Source: Promicromonospora thailandica (GTDB lineage: Bacteria; Actinomycetota; Actinomycetes; Actinomycetales; Cellulomonadaceae). Taken from it: 64,000 nucleotides of DNA. Location: NCBI RefSeq assembly GCF_024171955.1, contig NZ_JAMTCS010000008.1:1-64000 (forward strand), given 5' to 3'. Position numbers and translations under genes: made by a program. The notes under the pieces were generated by a model, which worked only from the letters and a program-made list of their open reading frames with translations, was not told the origin of the DNA and did not search any database. Of the stretch, positions 10,116 through 29,001 are shown one piece after another. Position 1 is the stretch's first letter; each line of letters opens with the position of its first letter.

Positions 10116-11064
10116 GCGCCCCGGAACGCGCCACCTCGTGCTGCGCGTGGCCGCGACGAGCGACCTCACCCCGACGGTGCGCCGGTTCGTCCTGCGGGAC
10201 CCGGCCGGGCGTCCCCTGCCGGGCTACGAGCCGGGCGCGCACGTCGTGGTCACCACACCTGCCGGGCACCTGCGGGGCTACAGCCTCGTCGATCCCGGGG
10301 GGCCTGCGCCCCGGGAGTACGTCGTGTGCGTGCGCCGCGACGACCGCGGCCGCGGCGGCTCGCGGAGCATGCACGACGACGTCACGGTCGGCACCGACCT
10401 CGTCGTCACCGCACCGGCCAACACGTTCGCGCTCCGGCCCGCGGCCCGCTACCTGTTCGTCGCCGGCGGCATCGGCATCACCCCGGTGCGGGCGATGGTG
10501 CGGTGGCTGCGGGCCCGGCCGGGCGCCGACGTGCGGCTGGTGTACCTCACGCGCTCGCCCGCCGAGACGCCCTTCCGGGACGAGCTCGGCGGGCCGGGCG
10601 ACACCGTGCACCACAGCGCCGGGGGAGGGCGGCTCGACCTGTGGCCCTACCTCGCCGAACCCGCCGACGACCTGCGCCTCTACTGCTGCGGACCGCCGGC
10701 GCTGCTGCGGGCCGTGCGGGCGGCGACGGCGCACTGGCGGCCCAGCCGCGTGCACACCGAACGGTTCGCGGGCGGGACGGAGGGCGCGTCCGTGCCGTTC
10801 ACCGCGGTCTGGGCGCCCGACGGGCGACGCGTCCAGGTACCCGCGGACGTCTCGCTGCTCACGGCCCTGCGCCGCGACGGGGTGCGGGTCGACGCCTCGT
10901 GCGAGGCGGGCGTCTGCGGCACGTGCCGCCTGACGCTGCTCGACGGCGTGGCCGACCACCGGGACGCGGTGCTGACCGGTCCGGAGCGCGTCGGGCACGT
11001 CATGGCCTGCGTGTCCCGGGCCCGCACCTCGGAGATCGTCGTCGGGCCGCCGCGCGCGGCGTGA
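10099..11064 (+). CDS. flavin/2Fe-2S oxidoreductase (phthalate dioxygenase reductase family)
   Basis: 321 residues from ATG 10099 inside the end of the MOSC gene; GGAGCAGG precedes it. Domain order is a ferredoxin-reductase-type flavin domain (YEPGAHVVV, LRGYSLV), an NAD domain (FVAGGIGITPVRAM, LYCCGPPALL), and a C-terminal plant-type 2Fe-2S domain (CEAGVCGTC plus a later Cys in MACVSRA). This matches vanillate demethylase/phthalate dioxygenase reductases. It most likely delivers electrons to the adjacent MOSC protein. Confidence 0.88.
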   Translation: MSSPPERPGTRHLVLRVAATSDLTPTVRRFVLRDPAGRPLPGYEPGAHVVVTTPAGHLRGYSLVDPGGPAPREYVVCVRRDDRGRGGSRSMHDDVTVGTDLVVTAPANTFALRPAARYLFVAGGIGITPVRAMVRWLRARPGADVRLVYLTRSPAETPFRDELGGPGDTVHHSAGGGRLDLWPYLAEPADDLRLYCCGPPALLRAVRAATAHWRPSRVHTERFAGGTEGASVPFTAVWAPDGRRVQVPADVSLLTALRRDGVRVDASCEAGVCGTCRLTLLDGVADHRDAVLTGPERVGHVMACVSRARTSEIVVGPPRAA

Positions 11065-13658: not shown

Positions 13659-17139
<3,481 letters not shown>

Positions 17140-17144
<5 letters not shown>

Positions 17145-17175: not shown

Positions 17176-17203
17176 TTGACGGGCCCTCGGGAGGCATTAA
17201 GTT
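17176..17203 (+). promoter_or_regulatory. desA operon promoter
   Basis: TTGACG (17176-17181), 16-bp spacer, TAAGTT (17198-17203). The -10 overlaps the iron box by two bases, so repressor binding would block polymerase. Confidence 0.6.
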
Positions 17204-17220
17204 AGGTCAGGCAAACCTAA
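17202..17220. promoter_or_regulatory. iron box (DmdR/IdeR operator)
   Basis: TTAGGTCAGGCAAACCTAA differs from the actinobacterial iron-box consensus TTAGGTTAGGCTAACCTAA at only two positions. It lies 51 bp before desA. DmdR/IdeR with Fe(II) would repress the siderophore operon when iron is sufficient. Confidence 0.93.
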
Positions 17221-17270: not shown

Positions 17271-18833
17271 ATGCCCTCACGCCTGCCCGCAGCGCCGCCC
17301 GTGCCCAGCGCCGTGCACCACGACACGACCGCGCTGCTGCGCGGGGCCACGGCCGACGCCTACGCGGACACGGTCCGCGACGTCGCGCGCGACGTCGCGG
17401 CCCGGCTCTCGGCCGTCACCCAGCCCTTCTCGGGCGCCGGCCGCGCCGAGCTGCAGGACCTTGTCGACGCCGTCGACCTCGACGGGCCGGCGTCCGGCAC
17501 GGCCGAGGCGCTGCGCGAGGCAGGCGAGCTGTACGCGCAGCACGCGATCTGGTTCCACGTGCCCGCCTACGCCGCGCACCTGAACTGCCCCGTGGCGCTG
17601 CCCGCGGTGGGCGCCGAGACGATGCTCGCCGCCATCAACACCTCGGTCGACACCTACGACCAGTCCACGGTCGCCACGCTCATGGAACGGCGCCTCGTGG
17701 AGTGGACGGCGGGCCGGATCGGCTTCCCCGCCGGTGGCGCCGACGGCGTCTTCACCTCGGGCGGCACCCAGTCGAACTTCCAGGCCCTGTTCCTGGCGCG
17801 CGAGAAGGCCCGCCGGGCGGGCACGCGCCTGGAGTCCATGCGGATCCTGACCACCGGCGTGAGCCACTTCAGCATCGCCAAGTCCGCCCTGCTGCTCGGC
17901 CTGCCCGACGACGCCGTGGTCACCGTCGGCACCGACGCCGACGGCCGCATGAGCCCCGACGCCCTGGCCCGCACCCTGGTCGACGTCGAGCGCACCGGCG
18001 ACGTCGTGATCGCCGTCGTCGCGACCGCCGGCACCACCGACCGCGGCTGCATCGACCCGCTCGGCCCCGTGGCCGACCTGTGCGACGCCGTCGGCACGTG
18101 GCTGCACGTCGACGCCGCCTACGGCTGCGGCCTCCTGGTCAGCCCCACGCGCCGCCACCTGCTGGCCGGCATCGAGCGAGCCCGCAGCGTCACCGTCGAC
18201 TTCCACAAGGCGTTCTTCCAGCCCGTGTCCTCCAGCGCGCTGATCGTGCGCGAGCGTGCCGACCTGGCGCCCGTCGCCTGGCACGCCGACTACCTCAACC
18301 CGCGGGAGGAGGACGGCGAGCCCAACCCCGACCTCAACCAGGTCGACAAGTCCCTGCAGACCACCCGCCGGTTCGACGCCCTCAAGCTCTGGGTCACGCT
18401 GCGGGCCCTCGGCCCGGACGGCGTCGGTGCGCTCGTCGACGCCGTCTGCGACCTGGCCGCCGCCGTCCACGCCGACCTCGCCACCGACCGCGACCTCCGC
18501 GTCGTCGGCACCACCGACCTGTCCACCGTGCTGTTCCGCTACGAGCCCGACGGCCTCGACCCCGAGCGCGCCGACGCCCTCGTGCCCCAGGTGCGCCGCG
18601 TGCTGTTCGACTCCGGCCGCGCCCTGGTCGCCAAGACCGTCGTCGACGGCCGGCCCTGCCTCAAGCTCACCCTGCTCAACCCCGACGCCACCCTCGCCGA
18701 CGTACGCGGCGTGCTCGAGCTGGTCCGCTCCGCCGCCCACGGGCTGCTCGCGGGGGAGGCCCTCACCGACACCGACGAGCCGCCGTGCCGGACGGTGCAC
18801 CCTCGCCTGGCCCGGACCGAGGGGGAGGGCTGA
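17271..18833 (+). CDS. desA: lysine decarboxylase for desferrioxamine
   Basis: 520 residues from ATG 17271 with GAGGAG 8 nt upstream. PLP-dependent group II decarboxylase: TSGGTQSNFQALFLAREKARR, TAGTTDRGCIDPLG, HVDAAYGCGLL, and the Schiff-base Lys in TVDFHKAFFQP. DesA decarboxylates lysine to cadaverine, the diamine of desferrioxamines. First gene of the iron-box-controlled operon; its stop overlaps desB as TGATG. An ornithine or DOPA substrate is less likely given the neighbours. Confidence 0.93.
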   Translation: MPSRLPAAPPVPSAVHHDTTALLRGATADAYADTVRDVARDVAARLSAVTQPFSGAGRAELQDLVDAVDLDGPASGTAEALREAGELYAQHAIWFHVPAYAAHLNCPVALPAVGAETMLAAINTSVDTYDQSTVATLMERRLVEWTAGRIGFPAGGADGVFTSGGTQSNFQALFLAREKARRAGTRLESMRILTTGVSHFSIAKSALLLGLPDDAVVTVGTDADGRMSPDALARTLVDVERTGDVVIAVVATAGTTDRGCIDPLGPVADLCDAVGTWLHVDAAYGCGLLVSPTRRHLLAGIERARSVTVDFHKAFFQPVSSSALIVRERADLAPVAWHADYLNPREEDGEPNPDLNQVDKSLQTTRRFDALKLWVTLRALGPDGVGALVDAVCDLAAAVHADLATDRDLRVVGTTDLSTVLFRYEPDGLDPERADALVPQVRRVLFDSGRALVAKTVVDGRPCLKLTLLNPDATLADVRGVLELVRSAAHGLLAGEALTDTDEPPCRTVHPRLARTEGEG

Positions 18834-20188
18834 TGGCCGGCACGCACGTCCACGACCTGCCCGTCCACGATCTGGTCTGCGTCGGCCTCGGCCCCTTCGG
18901 CCTGGGCCTGGCCGCGCTGGCCGACCCGCTCGACGACGTCGACGCCGTGTTCCTGGACCAGCGCGACGGCTTCTCCTGGCACCCCGGCATGCTCATCGAG
19001 GGCACCACGCTCCAGGTGCCGTTCCTGGCCGACCTGGTGACGATGGCCGACCCCACCTCGCCCTACTCGTTCCTCGCCTGGCTCAAGGCGACCGGGCGGC
19101 TGTACCCCTTCTACATCCGCGAGTCCTTCTACCCGCTGCGCGCCGAGTACGACGAGTACTGCCGCTGGGTGGCCGGGCAGCTCACCACGCTGCGCTGGGG
19201 GCGGCGGGTCACCTCGGTCGTCCGCGTCGCCACGCCGGACGGGTACCTGTTCGAGGTCACCGCCGAGACCCCGCACGGGTCGGAGAAATACTGTGCCAAG
19301 CACCTCGTGCTCGGCACCGGCACCCAGCCGCGCCTGCCCGCGGTTCTGCGGGGACTGCGGGGCGCGGGTCCCGTCGTGCACACCGGCGACTACCTGACGC
19401 ACCGGGAGGCGCTCGCGGCGTCGGGCTCCGTGACGGTCGTGGGCAGCGGGCAGAGCGCGGCCGAGGTGTACCGCGACCTGCTGGACGGCTGCGGCACCGG
19501 GCCGGGGGAGCACCGCCTGGACTGGGTCACGCGCTCGCCCCGGTTCTTCCCGATGGAGTACACCAAGCTGACCCTCGAGATGACCTCCCCGGAGTACACC
19601 GACCACTACGTGTCCCTGCCCGCCGCGCTGCGCGACACGCTCGGCCGCGAGCAGCGCAACCTCTACAAGGGCATCAGCGGCGACCTGGTCGACGACATCT
19701 ACGACACGCTGTACCGCCGCTCCGCCCTCGGGCGGGAGCTGCCCACCACGCTCCTGTCCGACACCGAGGTGGTCGCCGCCCGGTACGACGCCGACGGCAC
19801 CGACGGCACAGGGGAGTACGTGCTGACCCTGCGGCACGGCCAGCTCGGCACCACCGCGGAGCACCGCACCCGCGCGGTCGTCGCCGCCACCGGCTACGCG
19901 GCGTCCGTGCCCGAGTTCCTCGCCCCCGGGCTCGTGGACCTCGACGAGCGGGGCCGCTACGTCGTGGCCCGCGACTACACCGTGGACGCCGACCGGCGCG
20001 TGCACGTCATGAACGGCGAGGAGCACACGCACGGCGTCACGGCGCCCGACCTCGGCTTCGGCGCCTGGCGCAGCTCGGTGATCCTCGCGGCGGTCACCGG
20101 CCGCGAGCCGTACCCGGTCGAGCGGCGCATCGCGTTCCAGCAGTTCGGCCTGCCCGGGGCCCGCGTCGCGACGGAGGCGGCCCGATGA
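18833..20188 (+). CDS. desB: cadaverine N-monooxygenase
   Basis: 451 residues from ATG 18833. Flavin-dependent N-hydroxylating monooxygenase of the IucD/SidA family: FAD motif VGLGPFGLGLAALAD, HPGMLIEGTTLQVPFLADL, NADPH-binding VVGSGQSAAEVYRDLL, and ATGYAAS near the C-terminus. DesB makes N-hydroxycadaverine from the DesA product. The stop overlaps the start of the fused desCD gene as ATGA, so the proteins are translated in series. Confidence 0.94.
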   Translation: MAGTHVHDLPVHDLVCVGLGPFGLGLAALADPLDDVDAVFLDQRDGFSWHPGMLIEGTTLQVPFLADLVTMADPTSPYSFLAWLKATGRLYPFYIRESFYPLRAEYDEYCRWVAGQLTTLRWGRRVTSVVRVATPDGYLFEVTAETPHGSEKYCAKHLVLGTGTQPRLPAVLRGLRGAGPVVHTGDYLTHREALAASGSVTVVGSGQSAAEVYRDLLDGCGTGPGEHRLDWVTRSPRFFPMEYTKLTLEMTSPEYTDHYVSLPAALRDTLGREQRNLYKGISGDLVDDIYDTLYRRSALGRELPTTLLSDTEVVAARYDADGTDGTGEYVLTLRHGQLGTTAEHRTRAVVAATGYAASVPEFLAPGLVDLDERGRYVVARDYTVDADRRVHVMNGEEHTHGVTAPDLGFGAWRSSVILAAVTGREPYPVERRIAFQQFGLPGARVATEAAR

Positions 20189-22602
20189 GCGCGACGTACC
20201 GCACCACCACGCGCCTCGGGGAGGTCACCGTCGAGCCCGTCGTCCCGGCGCGCGACGCCGGCCTGGTCCAGGCCTGGCTCGCCCACCCGTCGGCGTCCTA
20301 CTGGCAGATGGGCGGGCTGACGGTCGAGGAGGTGCGCGAGTACCTGGCCGCCGTGCAGGACCACCCGCACCAGGACGCCTGGCTCGGGCGCCTCGACGGC
20401 GAACCGGTCTTCCTCACCGAGACCTACGACCCGGCGCACGTGCTGCTCACCCCGGTGCACGACGCGCAGCCCGGCGACCTCGGCATGCACCTGCTCGTCG
20501 CCCCGCCCGACACGCCGCGGCACGGGCTCACCGACGCCGTCATGACCGCTGTCATGCGGTTCTGCCTCACCGAGGGCGACGGCGGTCGGGGCGCCGCCCG
20601 CGTCGTCGTCGAACCCGACGTCGGCAACCGCAGGATCGCCGCCAAGAACGCCGCCGCGGGGTTCCGGGTGCTGCGCGAGGTCGACCTCGGCCGCGGCGCC
20701 CACGCCAAGCGCGCGGCCCTCAGCGTGGCCACCCGCGCCGACTTCACGGCCTCCCCGCTCGGTGCCGGCGTCGACCCCGCCCCGCACCTCGCACCCGGAC
20801 TCATGGAGCACGCGCACCGGCACCTGGTCGCCAAGACGCTCGCCGAGCTCACCCACGAGCGGCTCTTCGCCCCGGTGCCCGACGGCCCCGACGGCGCCCA
20901 CCGGCTCGACCTGGACGGCGTCACCTACCGGTTCACCGCCACGCGCCACGCCCTGGAGCACTGGGTGGTCGACCCGGCCTCCGTGCGCCGCACCGCGAGC
21001 GCCGGCGCGCGCGGCGGCGTCGGGCGGCAGGTCGAGCTGCCCGTCGACGCGCTCGAGCTCGTCGCCGAGCTGGGGCCCCTCCTGCAGGTGCCCGACGACC
21101 TGCTGGCCGTCTACCTCGAGGAGCTCTCCTCGACCCTGGCCAGCGCCGCCGCCAAGCGTGAGCGCGAGCTCGACGGCACCACCGCCTCCGTCCGGGGTCT
21201 GCTGGACGCGATGCGCACCGCGTCCGACGCCGGGTCGGTCGCCGCCTCGTTCCAGCAGGTCGAGGCCGCCATGTCCGAGGGCCACCCGAGCTTCGTGGCC
21301 AACAACGGCCGCATCGGCTTCTCCCTGAGCGACTACCGTGCCTACGCCCCCGAGCGCGGGCAGCGCCTGCGCCTGCACTGGCTCGCGGCCCGCCGCGAGC
21401 ACACCCACCTGGCCCTGGCCGCCGACGGCACCGAGGCCACCCACTACGGCACCGAGCTGTCCGACGCCGAGCGCACCGCCTTCGCCGACCGCCTGGCCGC
21501 CCGCGGCCACGACCCCGCCGACTACCTCTACCTGCCCGTGCACCCGTGGCAGTGGGACCACCGCGTGGCCGTCACCTTCGCCGCCGACGTCGCGCGCGGC
21601 GACCTCGTGCCGGTCGGGCCCGGGGCCGACGAGTACCAGCCGCAGCAGTCCATCCGCACCATGTTCAACCGCACCCGGCCCGAGCGGCACTACGTCAAGA
21701 CGGCGCTCGCCATCCAGAACATGGGCTTCCTGCGCGGGCTCTCGCCCGCCTACATGCGCGCCACCCCCGCGATCAACGACTGGGTGGCCGACCTCGTCGC
21801 GGGCGACGACACGCTGCGCCGCGCCGGCTTCGGCGTGCTGCGCGAGGTCGCCTCCGTGGGCTACACCGGCGACGTCTACCACCGCACGCCCCGGCCCAAC
21901 CCCCACCGCAAGATGCTCGCGGCCCTGTGGCGCGAGTCGCCCCTGCCCCGGCTGGCGCCCGGCGAGCGGCTCGTCACGATGGCGAGCCTGCTGCACCGCG
22001 ACGCGGGCGGCGCGGCCTTCGCCACCGCCCTCGTCCGCGCCTCGGGCCTCCCGCCCGAGCAGTGGCTGACGGCCTACCTCGACGCCTACCTCTACCCCCT
22101 GGTCCACTGCCTGCTCAGCCACGAGCTCGCCTTCATGCCGCACGGCGAGAACCTCATCCTCGTGCTGCGCGACGGCGTCGTGGTGCGCGCCCTCATGAAG
22201 GACATCGGCGAGGAGGTGGCCGTGCTCGGCCACCGCACCCTGCCGCAGACGGTCGAGCGCATCCGCGCGGTCGTGGACGACGACGAGAAGGCGCTCGCGA
22301 TCTTCACCGACGTGTTCGACGGCGTGCTGCGCCACCTGTCGGGCATCCTGGCGGCCGACGGCGTGCTGGCCGAGGACCGGTTCTGGGCGCTGGTGGCCGG
22401 CACGATCGACCGGCACGCGGCCGAGCACCCGGACCTGCGCACCCGGATCGACCTGCGGGCGGAGCGCTTCGCGCACTCGTGCCTGAACCGGCTCCAGCTG
22501 CGCAACACGCTGCAGATGGTGGACCTGACCAACCAGTCGGAGTCGCTGATCTACGCCGGGGAGATGGACAACCCCGTGCGCAGGGTCTCGATCAGGGGAT
22601 GA
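20185..22602 (+). CDS. desCD: DesC-DesD fusion: acyltransferase plus NIS synthetase
   Basis: 805 residues from ATG 20185. Residues about 1-190 are a GNAT/IucB-type acyltransferase (ASYWQMGGLTVEEVREYL, PGDLGMHLLVAPPD) that acylates N-hydroxycadaverine with succinyl or acetyl groups. Residues about 205-805 are an IucA/IucC NRPS-independent synthetase (EGHPSFVANNGRIGFS, YLPVHPWQWDH, HGENLILVLRDG, MKDIGEE) that joins and cyclises the hydroxamates. In Streptomyces these are separate proteins; the fused form is known in Erwinia-type DfoC. No frameshift or linker stop is seen, so the fusion is real. Confidence 0.93.
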   Translation: MSATYRTTTRLGEVTVEPVVPARDAGLVQAWLAHPSASYWQMGGLTVEEVREYLAAVQDHPHQDAWLGRLDGEPVFLTETYDPAHVLLTPVHDAQPGDLGMHLLVAPPDTPRHGLTDAVMTAVMRFCLTEGDGGRGAARVVVEPDVGNRRIAAKNAAAGFRVLREVDLGRGAHAKRAALSVATRADFTASPLGAGVDPAPHLAPGLMEHAHRHLVAKTLAELTHERLFAPVPDGPDGAHRLDLDGVTYRFTATRHALEHWVVDPASVRRTASAGARGGVGRQVELPVDALELVAELGPLLQVPDDLLAVYLEELSSTLASAAAKRERELDGTTASVRGLLDAMRTASDAGSVAASFQQVEAAMSEGHPSFVANNGRIGFSLSDYRAYAPERGQRLRLHWLAARREHTHLALAADGTEATHYGTELSDAERTAFADRLAARGHDPADYLYLPVHPWQWDHRVAVTFAADVARGDLVPVGPGADEYQPQQSIRTMFNRTRPERHYVKTALAIQNMGFLRGLSPAYMRATPAINDWVADLVAGDDTLRRAGFGVLREVASVGYTGDVYHRTPRPNPHRKMLAALWRESPLPRLAPGERLVTMASLLHRDAGGAAFATALVRASGLPPEQWLTAYLDAYLYPLVHCLLSHELAFMPHGENLILVLRDGVVVRALMKDIGEEVAVLGHRTLPQTVERIRAVVDDDEKALAIFTDVFDGVLRHLSGILAADGVLAEDRFWALVAGTIDRHAAEHPDLRTRIDLRAERFAHSCLNRLQLRNTLQMVDLTNQSESLIYAGEMDNPVRRVSIRG

Positions 22603-25217
22603 TGTCGCCCGTGGACTTCGACCTGTTCCGTGACGAGCTCGGCATCCCGCACGTGCGGGCGGCGTCGGAGGCCGCGGTGGCCTACGGCCAGGGCTGGGTG
22701 ACCGCGCAGGACCGGGGGCTGCAGGTCGAGGCCGACCGGATGCGGTCCGAGGAGCGGTTCGCGGAGCTGGCCGGCGAGACCGGGGCCGCCTGGGACCGGT
22801 TCGCGGCGCGCGAGCGCCTCGCCGCGACGGCCCGCGCGATCCACGACGCCGCCGGCCCGGCCGAGCGTGCCTGGCTGGCCGCCTACGCCGACGGCGTGAA
22901 CGCCGGCCTGCTCGCCGGCGGCCGGGACGTGCCCGAGCTGGCGGACGTGCCCCACCGGCCGTGGGAGCCCTGGACGCCGGTCGGCGTGTTCCTGGCCGTG
23001 CACGTGCTGTTCAACGGGTTCCCCCAGGTGCTGTGGCGGGCGCACGTGGCCCGGCACCTGCGTGTGCCCGGCGTGCCGCCGGAGCGGGTGCTGCACCTGT
23101 TCGACGCCGAGGCCGGGTCCGGCTCCAACGCGTGGGCCGTGCACGGCGACCGCACGGTCTCGGGCAGCCCGCTCGTGGCGGGCGACCCGCACCGCACGCT
23201 GGAGCTGCCGGGGCCGTACCAGCAGGTGCGGCTCGTGTGCACCGACCCGGCCGGGTCGTTCGACGTGGCCGGCCTGGCCTTCCCTGGCGTGCCCGGCGTG
23301 CCGCACTTCGCGCACGCCGTCTCGCCGGCCGGGTCGGTCGCCTGGGGTATCACCAACGCCGCCGCGCACCACGTGGAGGTGGTCGCGGACGGCGCGGACG
23401 CCGCCGACCCGGGCGCCTGGCGTCTGAGCTGGCCGGCGCGCGAGCTGTCCGACGTCGGCGTGGCCGCCTGGCGCACCCTGCTGCACGCCCGCACCGCGCG
23501 CGACGTGGCCGACGCCTTCGCCGGCTGGGTCGACCCGGTCAACCGGGTGCTGACCGCGGACGACACGGGGGAGGTGCTCAGCCTGACCGCGGGCCGGGTG
23601 CCCGCCGCGGCCGACCGCGCGCTGCCCGCGGCCCGGCCCGCCGACGGCTGGGTCCGCCTCCCGGACCCCGTGCGGGTGACGCAGGCCGCCGTCGACGCGA
23701 ACGAGCGGCCCACGACCCAGGCGCCCGCCGGGCAGGACGGGCGGCCCGGCGCCGGTCCGCGCGACCTGCGGCCGGACCGGGAGGCGCACGACCTCGGCTG
23801 GTCCTACGTGCCGCACCGGGCCGAGCGGATCCGGCAGCTCCTGGCCGCCGCCACCGCACCGGAGTCGCCCGCCACGCAGGCCCGCATCCACGGCGACACG
23901 CGCGACCTCGGCGCGGCCGGCCTCGTCGCGCACCTGGGGGGCGACCCGTCCGCGGCCGCCGTCCGCCTGCGCGCCTGGGTGGCGGCGGGCGCGCACGTCG
24001 ACGCGGCCTCCGCCGACGCCGCCCTGTACATGCGCTGGCGGCACGCCCTGACGCAGCGGCTCGCCGCCCACCCGGCCCTCGCGCCGCTGCACGCCCCGCA
24101 CGGGCTGGACCCGGCGCTGGAGCCCCTGCTCGGCAGCGTGTTCGACGTGCCGACGGCGGTCGGCGCGGGCCTGGCCGGCCTCCTCGCCGCCGACTGGCTC
24201 GGGATCGACGGCGCGACCGAGGCTGCCGGGGCGCTGGCCGGTGTGCCGGACGACCGGCCGGTCTGGGGCGACCTCCACGTCGTCGCGCCGACGGCCCCGG
24301 TGCCCGCGCTCGCGGCCCCGTACGCCGCGGCGGTGCGTCCGGCCCCGGTCTCGGGCAACAACGAGTCGGTGCGCTGCACGGGCGGCTCGCCCGGCCTGGC
24401 GACCACGGTCTACCGCGGGTCGGTGGCCCGGTACGTGTGGGACCTGTCCGACCGGTCGCGCAGCCGGTGGGGTGTGCCGTTCGGGTCCGGCGGACGCCCC
24501 GGCGGCCCCCACTTCGACGACCAGCACGCCACGTGGGCCGCCGCCGGCACGGTGCCCGTGGTGACCGACCTGGACGATCCGGCGCGCCTGTACCCGCAGG
24601 ACACGACCCGGCGCCTGCTCAACGGGATCCGGGGTGCCCAGGTGTGGCGCGGCGACTTCGGCGCGCACGGTGCCGTGACCGCCCACGTGCTCGACCCGGA
24701 CGCCGACGCCGGCCTGCTGCACGGGTGGTTCACGCAGCCGCGGGCGGCCTTCTGGGGCATGGGCGAGCACACGCGCGACGAGGTGCGCGACACGTACGCC
24801 TACGTCGAGTCGCTGCCCACGCACCACGCCTACCTGCTGCGCTGGGACGACGAGCCCGTGCTGCTCGTGCAGGCCTACCACCCCGAGCACGACCCCGTGG
24901 CCGCCGCCTACGACGTGGCGCCCGGCGACCTGGGCATGCACCTCTTCCTCGGCGGGCGCGGCCCGACGGCGCGGCACGGCGCGCCGCGGGACGCGTGGAC
25001 GGTGCTCGGGCCGGCCCTGCGCGACTTCCTGTTCGCCGGGCCGGGCACGCGGCGGCTCGTCGCGGAGCCCGACGCCCGCAACGAGCGGGCGGTGCGCCGC
25101 ATGGCCGCGCTCGGCTTCACGGTGGGCGGGGAGGTCTCGTTCGAGTCGGCGCAGGGACCCAAGGTGGCGCGCCTGGCGTACCTCACGCGCGAGGAGGCCT
25201 ACGGCGCGGGCGTGTGA
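22599..25217 (+). CDS. penicillin-acylase-like hydrolase fused to a DesC-like acyltransferase
   Basis: 872 residues from ATG 22599, overlapping the desCD stop; a second in-frame ATG follows at 22602. Residues about 5-680 are a penicillin acylase-type Ntn hydrolase: GWVTAQDRGLQVEADRMR, the self-cleaving nucleophile GSGSNAWAV (Ser about 176), and GDPHR. Residues about 688-872 are a second GNAT domain, paralogous to the DesC part (PRAAFWGMGEHTRDEV, PGDLGMHLFLGG). No signal peptide is visible, so it acts inside the cell. From memory, some desferrioxamine clusters carry a separate penicillin-amidase (desG) and acyltransferase (desH); this looks like both in one chain. A role in altering the acyl or aryl groups of the siderophore is an inference. 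Confidence 0.82.
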   Translation: MMSPVDFDLFRDELGIPHVRAASEAAVAYGQGWVTAQDRGLQVEADRMRSEERFAELAGETGAAWDRFAARERLAATARAIHDAAGPAERAWLAAYADGVNAGLLAGGRDVPELADVPHRPWEPWTPVGVFLAVHVLFNGFPQVLWRAHVARHLRVPGVPPERVLHLFDAEAGSGSNAWAVHGDRTVSGSPLVAGDPHRTLELPGPYQQVRLVCTDPAGSFDVAGLAFPGVPGVPHFAHAVSPAGSVAWGITNAAAHHVEVVADGADAADPGAWRLSWPARELSDVGVAAWRTLLHARTARDVADAFAGWVDPVNRVLTADDTGEVLSLTAGRVPAAADRALPAARPADGWVRLPDPVRVTQAAVDANERPTTQAPAGQDGRPGAGPRDLRPDREAHDLGWSYVPHRAERIRQLLAAATAPESPATQARIHGDTRDLGAAGLVAHLGGDPSAAAVRLRAWVAAGAHVDAASADAALYMRWRHALTQRLAAHPALAPLHAPHGLDPALEPLLGSVFDVPTAVGAGLAGLLAADWLGIDGATEAAGALAGVPDDRPVWGDLHVVAPTAPVPALAAPYAAAVRPAPVSGNNESVRCTGGSPGLATTVYRGSVARYVWDLSDRSRSRWGVPFGSGGRPGGPHFDDQHATWAAAGTVPVVTDLDDPARLYPQDTTRRLLNGIRGAQVWRGDFGAHGAVTAHVLDPDADAGLLHGWFTQPRAAFWGMGEHTRDEVRDTYAYVESLPTHHAYLLRWDDEPVLLVQAYHPEHDPVAAAYDVAPGDLGMHLFLGGRGPTARHGAPRDAWTVLGPALRDFLFAGPGTRRLVAEPDARNERAVRRMAALGFTVGGEVSFESAQGPKVARLAYLTREEAYGAGV

Positions 25218-25272: not shown

Positions 25273-25278
25273 GATAAT
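25273..25278 (+). promoter_or_regulatory. -10 box GATAAT for the ABC exporter
   Basis: GATAAT lies 7 nt before ATG 25286, giving a leaderless start. The in-frame ATG at 25277 overlaps the box and is therefore unlikely to be used. No good -35 is visible, so activation by a regulator at the dyads is possible. Confidence 0.5.
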
Positions 25279-25285
25279 GGGAGTG

Positions 25286-27163
25286 ATGCCTCCCACAGAC
25301 GAACGCTCGAATCGATCCGAACCTTCCTCTGAGCCCCGGAGCGAACTCTCCACCTTCGCCTCCGTCCGCCGCCTGCATCCCTACGTCCGCACCGCGCTGC
25401 CGCGGCTCGCGGCCGGGCTGGCGGCCTCGCTGGGCGCCAGCCTCATGGCGCTCGCCATCCCGCGCGTGCTGCAGTGGGTCACCGACGGCCCCCTCACCGC
25501 AGGGGCGCGGGACCACGACTGGTCCGGCCTGGCCTGGTCGGTCGCCCTCGTCGCCGTGCTCGGCGCGGGGGAGGCCGGCCTGATCCTGCTGCGCCGCACC
25601 CTCGTGATGTTCCCGGGAACGCGCGTCGAGGCCGCGATGCGCATGTCCCTGTTCCGCCACCTGCAGGACCTGCCGGTCTCCTTCCACGACCGCTGGCCCG
25701 GCGGGCAGCTCCTGTCCCGCATCATGGGCGACCTCGGCCTGCTGCGCCGCTGGCTCGTCTTCGGCATCATCCAGCTCGTGGTCAGCATCGTGACCATCGT
25801 CGTCGGCGTCGGCCTGCTCGTGGCCACCGGCGGCTGGCTCGGGATCATCTTCCTGTGCGGCGCGATCCCGGTGACCGTGCTGGCCTTCCGGTTCTCCCGC
25901 CGGTACCGCAAGATCTCGCGCCTGTCCCAGGACCAGTCCGGCGACCTCGCCACCACCGTCGAGGAGTCCGTGCACGGCATCCGCGTGCTCAAGGCCTTCG
26001 GCCGCGGCCCCGACGCGCTCGACCAGTTCACCGAGCAGGCCGCCGAGCTGCGCGAGACCGAGATCCGCAAGGCCACCACCGACGCGGGCCTCACCACCGC
26101 GCTGCGCGTCATCCCCGAGGTCACCCAGGCCGTCGCGCTCGTCGTGGGCGCCTACCTCGTCGCCCAGGGCGACATGACGCTCGGCGCCCTGGTGGCCTTC
26201 TTCACCACCACCGCCGTCATCAACGGCCCCGTGGTGGACCTCGGCATGACCCTGTCGATGACGCTCAACGCGCGCACCGCCGTCGACCGGTTCTTCGAGG
26301 TCATGGACACCGTCAACCCCCTCACCGACCCGGAGCGGCCCGCCCGCCCCGAACCCGTGACCCCCGGCCGGGGCGGCGCCACGGGCGGGCACGTCGCCTT
26401 CCGCGACGTCACCTTCCGGTACGACGACGCCGCGCGCCCCGTGCTCCGGCACGTCGACCTCGAGCTCCCGCCCGGTACCACCACGGCCCTCGTCGGCCTC
26501 ACCGGCTCCGGCAAGTCGACCCTCGCGATGCTCGCGCCCCGCCTGTTCGACGTCACCGTGGGGCGCGTCGAGGTCGACGGCGTCGACGTGCGCGACCTGA
26601 CCCGCACGCAGGTGCGCGAACGCGTCGCCGTCGCCTTCGAGGACCCCACGCTGTTCTCCGCCTCCGTGCGGGACAACGTGCTGCTCGGGGTGTCCGACGA
26701 CCTGCCGGACGCCGAGCGCGAGACCCTGCTCGCCGAGTCCCTCGAGATCGCCCAGGCGCACTTCGTCGCCGACCTCCCGGACGGCGCCGACACCCGCATC
26801 GGCGAGGAGGGCATGTCGCTGTCCGGCGGGCAGCGGCAGCGCCTCGCCCTCGCCCGCGCCATCGCCGCCCGCCCCCGCGTGCTGGTGCTCGACGACCCCC
26901 TGTCCGCGCTCGACGTCACCACCGAGGAGGCCGTCACCGCACGCCTGCGCGACGTCCTGGCGGCCACCACCACCCTGGTCATCGCCCACCGGCCCTCCAC
27001 CGTGGCTCTGGCCGACCGCGTCGCCGTGCTCCAGGACGGCCGCGTCACCGCCGTCGGCACGCACCAGGAGCTCCTCGCGAGCGACCCGCACTACCGCCAC
27101 ATCATCTCCAGCCTCACCTCCGAGCCCACCCCCAGCCCCACCTCACAGGAGGCGCTGTCATGA
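25286..27163 (+). CDS. ABC exporter half-transporter, degenerate NBD
   Basis: 625 residues from ATG 25286. An ABC type 1 membrane domain (residues about 30-330, six predicted helices) precedes the nucleotide-binding domain: Walker [10 protein letters not shown], signature LSGGQRQRL, Walker [13 protein letters not shown], His-loop IAHRPST. The catalytic Glu after Walker B is Asp and the Q-loop reads FEDPTLF, features of the non-canonical half of heterodimeric exporters. Its stop overlaps the partner gene as ATGA. Adjacency to the siderophore operon suggests desferrioxamine export, but other substrates are possible. Confidence 0.88.
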
Positions 27164-29001
27164 CGGCCACCACCGACCAGCCCACCCGCCACCGGCCCAC
27201 CGACGCGGCCACGGACGACGCCACCCTGCTCGGCAAGGAGGCCTCCCGCGCCGTCCGTCGCCGCTCGATGCGCCTGCTCGGCGACCTCCTGCGCCCCCAC
27301 ACGAAGGCCCTGGCCTGGGCCGCGCTGCTCGTGGTCGCCTCCACGCTCGGCCAGGTCGCCGGGCCGTGGCTCGTCGCCGTCGCCATCGACCGCGCGGTCC
27401 CGGCCCTGGCCGACGGGTCCGGCACCCCGCTCGCGCTCACCGGCGCCGGCTACCTCGCCGCCGCCGTGCTCGGGGGCGTCGCCGCGGGCGCCTACGTGCG
27501 CGCCGCCGCCCGCATCGCCCAGGCCGTGCTGCTCGACCTGCGCCGCCGCGTCTTCCGCCAGACCCAGCGGCTCTCCCTCGAGTTCCACGAGTCCTACACC
27601 TCGGGCCGCATCATCTCCCGGCAGACCTCCGACCTGGAGGCCCTGCGCGAGCTGCTCGACGGCGGCCTCACCGGCGTCGTCTCCTCGCTGCTGCTCATGG
27701 TGTTCACCTTCGCCGGCCTCGCCCTGCTCGACTGGCGCTCCGGCGTCGTGCTCGCCGTCGCCTTCGTCCCCGCCTGGCTGCTCACCCGCTGGTTCCAGCG
27801 CATGTCCCAGCGGTACTACCGCGAGCAGCGCACCGCGTCGGCCCGGCTCATCGTCAAGTTCGTCGAGACCATGACCGGCATGCGCGCCGTCCAGGCGTTC
27901 CGCCGCCAGCCCACCACCGAGGCCGAGTACGGGCGGCTCGGCGAGGACTACCGCGACGCCAACCTGCAGATCTTCGGCGTCAACGGCCGCTTCCAGCCCG
28001 GCCTCATCCTCATCGGCAACCTCACGGTCGTCGCGGCGCTCGCCGTCGGCGGCTGGCGGGTGCTCGACGGCGCGCTCGAGGTGGGCGTGCTCGCGGCCGT
28101 GCTGCTGTACTGCAAGCGGTTCTTCCAGCCCGTGCAGCAGCTCGGCATGTTCTACAACGCGTTCCAGTCGGCCACCGCCGCGCTGGAGAAGGTCTCCGGC
28201 CTGCTCGCGGAGGAGCCCACCGTCGTCGAACCCGCCCGGCCGCTGCCGCTGCCGGGCGGCCGGGCCCGGGGCGAGCTGCGGCTCGACCACGTGCGGTTCC
28301 AGTACGGCGACGGCCCGGTGGTGCTGCCCGACCTGGACCTCACGATCCCCGCGGGCCAGACCGTCGCCGTGGTCGGCACCACGGGCGCGGGCAAGTCGAC
28401 GGTGGCCAAGCTGGTCACGCGGTTCTACGACGCGTCGGCCGGCGCGGTGCGGCTGGACGGCGTCGACGTGCGCGACCTGGCGTCGGCGGACCTGCGCCGC
28501 GCCGTCGTCATGGTCACGCAGGAGGCCTACCTGTTCAGCGGGTCGGTGCGCGAGAACATCGCGCTCGGCCGCCCGGACGCGACGCAGGCCGAGATCGAGG
28601 CGGCCGCGCGTGCCGTGGGCGCGCACGAGTTCGTCCTGGAGATGCCCGACGGGTACGACACCGATGTGAACAAGCGCGGCGGGCGCGTGTCCGCGGGGCA
28701 GCGGCAGCTGCTGTCGTTCGCGCGCGCGTTCCTCGCCGACCCGGCGGTGCTCGTGCTCGACGAGGCCACGTCGTCGCTCGACATGCCGGGGGAGCGGCTC
28801 GTGCAGCGCGGCCTGCAGACCCTGCTCGCCGACCGGACCGCGATCATCATCGCGCACCGGCTCTCGACCGTGGCGATCGCCGACCGGGTGCTCGTCATGG
28901 AGCACGGGCGCGTCGTCGAGGACGGCACGCCCGAGGAGCTCGTCGCGGGCGAGGGGCGGTACGCGCGGCTGCACGCGGCGTGGCGGGACTCGCTGGTGTG
29001 A
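27160..29001 (+). CDS. ABC exporter half-transporter, canonical Walker B
   Basis: 613 residues from ATG 27160 with AGGAGG upstream, coupled to the previous gene. The membrane domain (residues about 40-330) is followed by Walker [11 protein letters not shown]-loop [14 protein letters not shown], a changed signature VSAGQRQ in place of LSGGQ, Walker [13 protein letters not shown] with the catalytic Glu, and IAHRLST. The altered signature pairs with the Asp-containing site of the partner, which is the usual asymmetry of TM287/288- or BmrCD-like exporters. The pair should function as a heterodimer in the inner membrane. Confidence 0.9.

Follow-up and report, generated by a model that had tools for sequence, protein, structure and literature searches.

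Penicillin-amidase-family acylases have been linked to desferrioxamine biosynthesis in Streptomyces coelicolor, in which the operon desJGH is controlled by DmdR1 (Augustijn et al. 2025, PLoS Biol., PMC12161575; this article and PMC6164419 are cited here from a part of their text). Inactivation of desG and desH decreased desferrioxamine B about 1000-fold and 16-fold, respectively, with an increase of desferrioxamine E, and the mutants were complemented. It was proposed that DesG desuccinylates N-hydroxy-N-succinylcadaverine (HSC) and DesH acetylates the product, which leads to desferrioxamine B, and fused desGH genes were reported in Streptomyces atratus and in Micrococcus CH3 and CH7 (PMC12161575). 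Fusions of the DesC-DesD type have precedents in DfoC, BibC and BsbCD1 (PMC6164419). Here, we describe a desferrioxamine (des) locus of Promicromonospora thailandica, in which both fusions stand one after the other. It lies in a stretch of 64,000 nucleotides, hereafter the window (contig NZ_JAMTCS010000008.1, positions 1 to 64,000).

The explanation that we consider probable is that this is an iron-repressed Promicromonospora desferrioxamine operon of four genes, in which two consecutive enzyme pairs are fused and DesGH swaps succinyl for acetyl on the monomer. The desGH fusion and the succinyl-to-acetyl mechanism are already known, both published in 2025 (PMC12161575); new here are the genus Promicromonospora and the doubly fused des operon as a member of the described kind. 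The features are as follows.

17202-17220, plus strand: iron box (DmdR1/IdeR-type palindrome TTAGGTCAGGCAAACCTAA), upstream of the des operon, 50 bp 5' of the desA start
17271-18833, plus strand: desA-like pyridoxal phosphate-dependent decarboxylase, presumed lysine decarboxylase (Pfam PF00282)
18833-20188, plus strand: desB-like amine N-monooxygenase (PF13434, E 1.1e-112)
20185-22602, plus strand: desCD fusion, N-terminal succinyltransferase-type GNAT (about residues 21-190) and nonribosomal peptide synthetase (NRPS)-independent siderophore (NIS) synthetase DesD (about 196-800)
22599-25217, plus strand: desGH fusion, N-terminal nucleophile (Ntn) acylase DesG (1 to about 660), short linker (about 660-690) and GNAT DesH (about 691-868)
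23124-23126, plus strand: codon of Ser176, predicted nucleophile and first β-chain residue after Gly175-Ser176 autoproteolysis, aligned with β-chain residue 1 of 35sz and 4hsr
24870-24872, plus strand: codon of Gln758, diagnostic of DesH, with Glu at the equivalent position in DesC, DfoC and NcdE

In the proposed pathway, DesA and DesB would make N-hydroxycadaverine. The DesGH protein should cleave itself at Gly175-Ser176, and therefore DesH would remain attached to the β chain. The DesG domain, a cytoplasmic Ntn acylase, would remove succinyl from a part of the HSC, and DesH would then acetylate the desuccinylated monomer for desferrioxamine B.

The two fusion proteins and their operon

The frame at 22599-25217 is open over its whole length and encodes 872 residues. 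Penicil_amidase PF01804 matched in two stretches (E 1.3e-97) and was followed by GNAT PF13523 at residues 699-848. This protein is DesG, an Ntn-type acylase, joined to DesH, a DesC-like GNAT, and it holds within one chain the two domains that the DesG rule of PMC12161575 places within 1 kb of each other (PF01804 and a PF13523 GNAT). The DesG C-terminus and DesH share an open frame in all of 12 genus-mates, and the whole DesGH is in one frame in 10 of them, whereas a contig end interrupts it in G008 and it is in fragments in G010. Nine of these 12 genomes are the same as the nine Promicromonospora loci among the 79 named loci referred to below and form one set of evidence with them; the named loci were selected from 171 candidates as those most similar to the DesGH protein, and therefore fractions among them are not prevalences. 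An artefact by a missing stop, a frameshift or an assembly join was considered and rejected, because 12/12 genus-mates have an in-frame desG-desH junction. The AlphaFold2 model of DesGH had a mean predicted local distance difference test score (pLDDT) of 85.7 and a predicted template modelling score of 0.81, with pLDDT below 50 at residues 369-402. A second penicillin-amidase family protein, which is unfused, is encoded in the same genome (G000:C5:213461-215866; PF01804, 785.7 bits), and it matches DesGH in two stretches only (residues 6-130 and 172-257).

The frame at 20185-22602 is also single and encodes 805 residues with GNAT PF13523 (21-168), IucA/IucC PF04183 (355-604) and FhuF PF06276 (625-775). 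The protein matched DfoC (5o7o) over residues 3-800 (E 6.1e-180), so that an N-terminal GNAT and a C-terminal IucA/IucC synthetase are found on one chain collinear with DfoC. For the C-terminal part, DesD structures gave the strongest match (E 7.9e-167), and weaker ones were obtained with the alcaligin protein (6.5e-152), NcdF (2.1e-136) and IucC (8.4e-69). This order, with DesD structures and DfoC in front, supports a synthetase of the desferrioxamine type, and cadaverine would be the diamine of the pathway. DesC and DesD are in one frame in 11 of the 12 genus-mates, while G010 is without DesD. The original prediction, made from the sequence, had placed both fusions at these positions with these domains and had drawn the parallel with DfoC, and both statements were confirmed. 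The frameshift or stop between the domains that it had named as a refutation was seen neither at DesG-DesH in 12/12 genus-mates nor at DesC-DesD in 11/12.

The genes desA, desB, desCD and desGH overlap their neighbours by 1-4 bases, and therefore they very probably constitute one operon. The top NCBIfam model for the desA-like protein was the RhbB diaminobutyrate decarboxylase, with a score below the cut-off of that model; from the context of the cluster, lysine would be the substrate. The iron box already recognised before the operon was the sole match to the pattern TTAGGTNAGGCNAACCTAA in the window (0 expected, 100 shuffles) and the sole match to the looser pattern TTAGGNNAGNCNNNCCTAA in the 5.38-Mb genome, both patterns having been written from a consensus after the site had been seen. 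The box is identical in 8 of the nine named Promicromonospora loci, and that of P. citrea differs by one change. We took TTAGGTTAGGCTAACCTAA as the iron-box consensus to score the sites of the relatives. A plus-strand site within 4 mismatches of it was detected in 56 of the 79 named loci, and none in the other 23, which include several Isoptericola and Cellulomonas (individual sites are given for 45 of the 79). From this box, the des operon would be repressed by iron.

Recurrence of the fusions

A total of 112 DesG loci were compared, which are the 79 named loci, 32 further ones and the window, with some genomes represented twice (e.g., L102/L137, L104/L141 and L130/L142). DesG is fused to DesH in 28 of them, has DesH as a separate neighbour in 76, and is without a detected DesH in 8. 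The search of neighbourhoods suggested by the original prediction thus recovered the same fusion repeatedly, and its view that the acylase and the acyltransferase are separate genes in other clusters was incorrect: they are fused in S. atratus and Micrococcus CH3/CH7 (PMC12161575) and in 21 of the 79 named loci. The remaining named loci have separate genes (54) or no DesH (4, one of them because the contig ends). The 21 fused loci are from Promicromonospora (8), Actinoplanes (8, all of its loci), Micromonospora (3), Microbacterium (1) and Myceligenerans (1). Further fusions were found in two genomes of genus g73, two of genus g112, which the tree places among Micromonospora, one of family f19, and G025. 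The f19 locus is probably from Microbacteriaceae, because Agromyces L102 and G257, a member of the same genus as this locus, have their DesG in common. The fusions in Actinoplanes, Micromonospora, Myceligenerans and Microbacteriaceae are new. In a class-wide sample, 64 of 394 genomes matched DesGH at E 1e-60 or better, and 6 of these, including the window, had an uninterrupted full-length match. Among the same 64, the match is in two pieces in one frame in G231, full-length with one stop in G352, and limited to the DesG end and DesH in one frame in G372; in most of the others it covers DesG alone, whatever the location of DesH.

On the DesG tree (81 rows), the fused or separate state needs at least 6 changes, 5 of which are forced by well-supported branches. 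A single origin of the desGH fusion was rejected, as the 25 fused rows in one clade gave a P value of 6.3e-8 in the approximately unbiased test (p-AU). This tree is of a quick type with two long rows (L162 and L052) and does not separate gain from loss; the 31 rows left out of the 112 are mostly close repeats, and include L061, L074, L128 and the rows without DesH L144, L147 and L150.

The desCD fusion has a different distribution among the named loci. It is present in 25/25 Promicromonosporaceae loci having an untruncated DesD, in 8/8 Actinoplanes, and in Agromyces and some other Microbacteriaceae, and desC and desD are apart in 8/8 Cellulomonas loci with DesD and in 3/3 Micromonospora. On the DesD tree, which has 66 rows and includes no proteobacterial DfoC, the fusion label needs 3 changes, of which at least 1 is forced, and a single origin may be compatible with it. 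Six rows (L088, L135, L137, L141, L143 and L162) had been dropped before this rerun, because loci with short flanks had distorted the first count. Both fusions occur together in 16 of the 79 named loci, namely 8/8 Actinoplanes and 8 of the 9 Promicromonospora, with the last one truncated at the end of its contig, and also in the window genome and G025. In Micromonospora, desGH is fused, but desC and desD are apart and on the opposite strand. Four comparisons of independent pairs gave no signal linking one fusion to the other. The double fusion was not found in searches of an open-licence library of articles.

Recurrence of the fusion in Promicromonosporaceae, Micromonosporaceae and Microbacteriaceae, beside the published Streptomyces and Micrococcus, gives indirect support for DesG and DesH as a consecutive pair, and the same argument is made from fused desGH in PMC12161575. 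In a stronger form, which we put forward tentatively and rate somewhat short of evenly balanced, DesGH would be a dedicated acyl-exchange enzyme, fused several times independently, in which the hydroxylamine passes from site to site. The desGH half of the double fusion would have arisen separately in Promicromonospora and in Actinoplanes, and the pathway would consist of two machines with their protein ratio setting the capping. If this is true, desCD makes and joins succinyl monomers, and desGH turns a part of them into end caps. A benefit from tethering DesG to DesH would be part of such a scheme. It is also possible, though somewhat less likely than not, that the fusion arose neutrally from the adjacency of the two genes and that joined and separate proteins work equally well, which is compatible with acyl exchange by DesGH. 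In the unfused Myceligenerans salitolerans (L091), the desG stop (10218-10220) lies 17 bp into desH in another frame (desH start at 10204, placed by eye), and because of this overlap a small frame change could join the genes. In separate pairs, the distance between the two domains is 23-230 bp, and most pairs are unfused (76 of the 104 loci having both). On the other hand, well-supported branches require 5 or more switches between fused and separate, a single clade is rejected, and the fusion is retained in 12/12 genus-mates and 8/8 Actinoplanes loci, which is no more than suggestive of a role beyond neutrality.

Several loci depart from the arrangement in the window. A lone desG is present near 8001-10091 in L094 and L119 (Cellulomonas) and L130 (Mumia), and no desH, desABCD or DesC-/DesH-like domain was found in the 18 kb around it; in L094 and L119 it adjoins an ABC transporter gene, and in L094 also a sigma-factor gene. 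In Arthrobacter, Paenarthrobacter and Pseudarthrobacter (L076, L078, L081, L101, L118, L122-L128 and L132), desG and desH are adjacent and no desD was found in the surrounding stretch, as in the separate S. coelicolor locus. In L076, L078 and L081, the three listed for this feature, a site with 3 mismatches from the iron-box consensus lies about 90 bp before desG. The record L079, Sphaerisporangium cinnabarinum ATCC 31213, is close to Cellulosimicrobium funkei in the DesG and DesD trees and may be misnamed or contaminated.

Active sites, nearest relatives and likely substrates

G175, S176, H198 and N368 are invariant in all 34 rows of the DesG/DesGH alignment. S176 and H198 align with residues β-1 and β-23 of 4hsr, and N368 was placed by eye through the common A-N-x-R motif, as the printed alignment does not place it. 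We take the three residues to be the β-1 Ser, the His β-23 and the oxyanion Asn, and with them DesG appears to have intact Ntn residues. Classical penicillin G acylase is a secreted precursor with a signal peptide. In DesGH, the acylase homology starts at residue 6-7, a judgement made from the alignment with no signal-peptide program used, and because this leaves no room for a signal peptide, the protein should be cytoplasmic, at the site of the monomers. The acylase had been predicted to be cytoplasmic, in agreement with this result.

A profile built from 34 DesG/DesGH proteins was run against solved chains. The top match was 35sz, a penicillin-acylase-family protein (6.5e-157), and the β chain of class III glutaryl-7-aminocephalosporanic acid (GL-7-ACA) acylase (5.4e-106) and D-succinylase (1.9e-60) also scored highly. 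Penicillin G acylase gave 2.1e-35 for its best chain (7reo, full-length) and 1.4e-15 at best for β chains, and PvdQ gave 3.9e-13. The nearest solved kin are thus not penicillin G acylases, since 35sz, 4hsr and the D-succinylase 7eby outscored the best of their chains. In the Foldseek comparison with the AlphaFold2 model, D-succinylase came out on top, followed by cephalosporin acylases. As the length of an uncleaved single chain raises its score, β chains were compared separately, and the values were 2.0e-20 for class III cephalosporin acylase, 1.5e-11 for class I GL-7-ACA acylase, 3.8e-10 for PvdQ and 6.8e-9 for penicillin G acylase. The profile and fold rankings partly support, short of proof, a dicarboxylic acyl substrate of DesG. 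The idea that 35sz is DesG itself was not supported, as the match of DesG of genus g73 to the 35sz β chain reached no more than 405 bits across about 514 residues.

DesH is a GNAT of the DesC kind that is distinct from DesC and lies downstream of DesG, and Gln758 is one among several positions specific to it. The position of Gln758 is Gln in 103/103 DesH and Glu (Glu79) in 66/66 DesC, and it is also Glu in DfoC and NcdE, two residues before the Tyr that was mutated in NcdE. The residues mutated in NcdE are kept in DesH as Tyr (103/103), Glu or Asp (94 and 9 of 103) and Lys (100/103); DesC (n=66) likewise retains the Tyr, and also the Glu and Lys with few exceptions. In this comparison, DesH rows were assigned by their position after DesG, and DesC rows partly by a better BLAST score to the DesC than to the DesH of this strain. 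Only DesH pieces longer than 130 residues were counted, which excluded one (L128), and only DesC hits that span more than 120 query residues. The Glu/Gln switch offers a one-residue target for studies of acyl choice. Judging from the S. coelicolor desH mutants, acetyl-CoA would be the donor for DesH, and the substrates of both domains in this strain would correspond to those proposed for S. coelicolor.

Several points weigh against the exchange of succinyl for acetyl. The published desuccinylation step is a proposal from metabolite profiles of mutants, and a substrate assay of DesG or DesH was not found in the consulted part of PMC12161575. Class I GL-7-ACA acylases (full-length 1.3e-17, β 5.6e-11) are no nearer to the DesG profile than penicillin G acylase, and because they score below it, only class III and D-succinylase can be called near. 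No substrate is stated for 35sz, the solved chain closest to DesG, and D-succinylase works on other acceptors. A recurrent desGH fusion is also expected from adjacency, because desG and desH lie side by side, and from the lone desG genes, DesG may have a use apart from capping.

It is unlikely that DesG frees an aromatic or fatty acid, or that DesH uses a non-acetyl acyl-CoA, to produce aryl- or acyl-capped desferrioxamines. The DesG profile does pick up a penicillin G acylase chain, but D-succinylase and class III cephalosporin acylase are far closer to DesG, and the main loss in the mutants was that of acetyl-capped desferrioxamine B; no arylated desferrioxamines were identified in S. coelicolor (consulted part of PMC12161575). 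Trimming of finished or re-imported desferrioxamine by DesG in the cytoplasm, followed by re-capping by DesH, would suit the cytoplasmic look of DesGH and the lone desG of two Cellulomonas and one Mumia, since DesG can be kept there without a capping partner, but it is very improbable, as the genetics fit monomer supply, with desferrioxamine E rising as B falls (PMC12161575), and desGH lies directly 3' of desCD in the window and in 8/8 named Promicromonospora loci uncut by a contig end. The earlier idea that one acyl group is removed and another installed agrees with the published proposal, but its placement on finished desferrioxamine does not, as the genetics place the editing on the monomer, from succinyl to acetyl (PMC12161575). 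Desferrioxamine B is a medicine, and the cellular choice between it and the cyclic desferrioxamine E is still only modelled. The single-chain DesGH would be a handy enzyme for a one-reaction test of the proposed succinyl-to-acetyl exchange.

Surrounding genes and comparison with known systems

Thiamine genes (ThiS, ThiG and ThiF/MoeB-like, named by eye from translations) occupy 13877-17144 of the window and end just 5' of the iron box. A pair of MsbA-type ABC transporter genes (25277-27163 and 27160-29001, plus strand) begins about 60 bp 3' of desGH and is a candidate siderophore exporter. The pair also follows desGH in 8 other loci of Promicromonospora and in 2 of Myceligenerans, and it is close to the cluster in one Antribacter and in one Cellulosimicrobium; a further Cellulosimicrobium has one of the two, and none above 350 bits was found in the remaining loci of the 80 searched.

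The closest known system is S. coelicolor DesG-DesH (SCO4049-SCO4050), which is likewise a penicillin-amidase-family acylase with a DesC-like GNAT, iron-regulated and linked to desferrioxamine. It consists of two genes at a separate locus, whereas here one gene ends the des operon after a fused desCD. The desGH of S. atratus and Micrococcus CH3/CH7 share the fused acylase and GNAT (PMC12161575). The acylases characterised closest to DesG by profile and fold are the D-succinylase of Cupriavidus (7eby) and the class III GL-7-ACA acylase (4hsr), which have a β-chain N-terminal serine; they show 20-26% identity in the Foldseek alignments, act on other acceptors, and have no fused acyltransferase. 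The acyltransferase domain of NcdE in the nocardichelin NRPS (9nij) is a GNAT related to DesH, in which the mutated Tyr/Glu/Lys positions are those kept in DesH, but it has Glu in place of Gln and sits within an NRPS. The N-terminal part of BsbCD1 (Tenacibaculum mesophilum) and BibC (Aliivibrio salmonicida) is presumably a GNAT. Both resemble DesCD in that the NIS synthetase occupies the C-terminal side of a longer polypeptide, but their systems yield bisucaberin-type products, and DesG/DesH are not mentioned in the consulted part of PMC6164419. DfoC of Erwinia amylovora (5o7o) has the DesC-type GNAT N-terminal to DesD, as in DesCD. Unlike the DfoC system, the host here is actinobacterial and the operon also carries DesGH, and therefore the cyclic product is predicted to be accompanied by a capped one.

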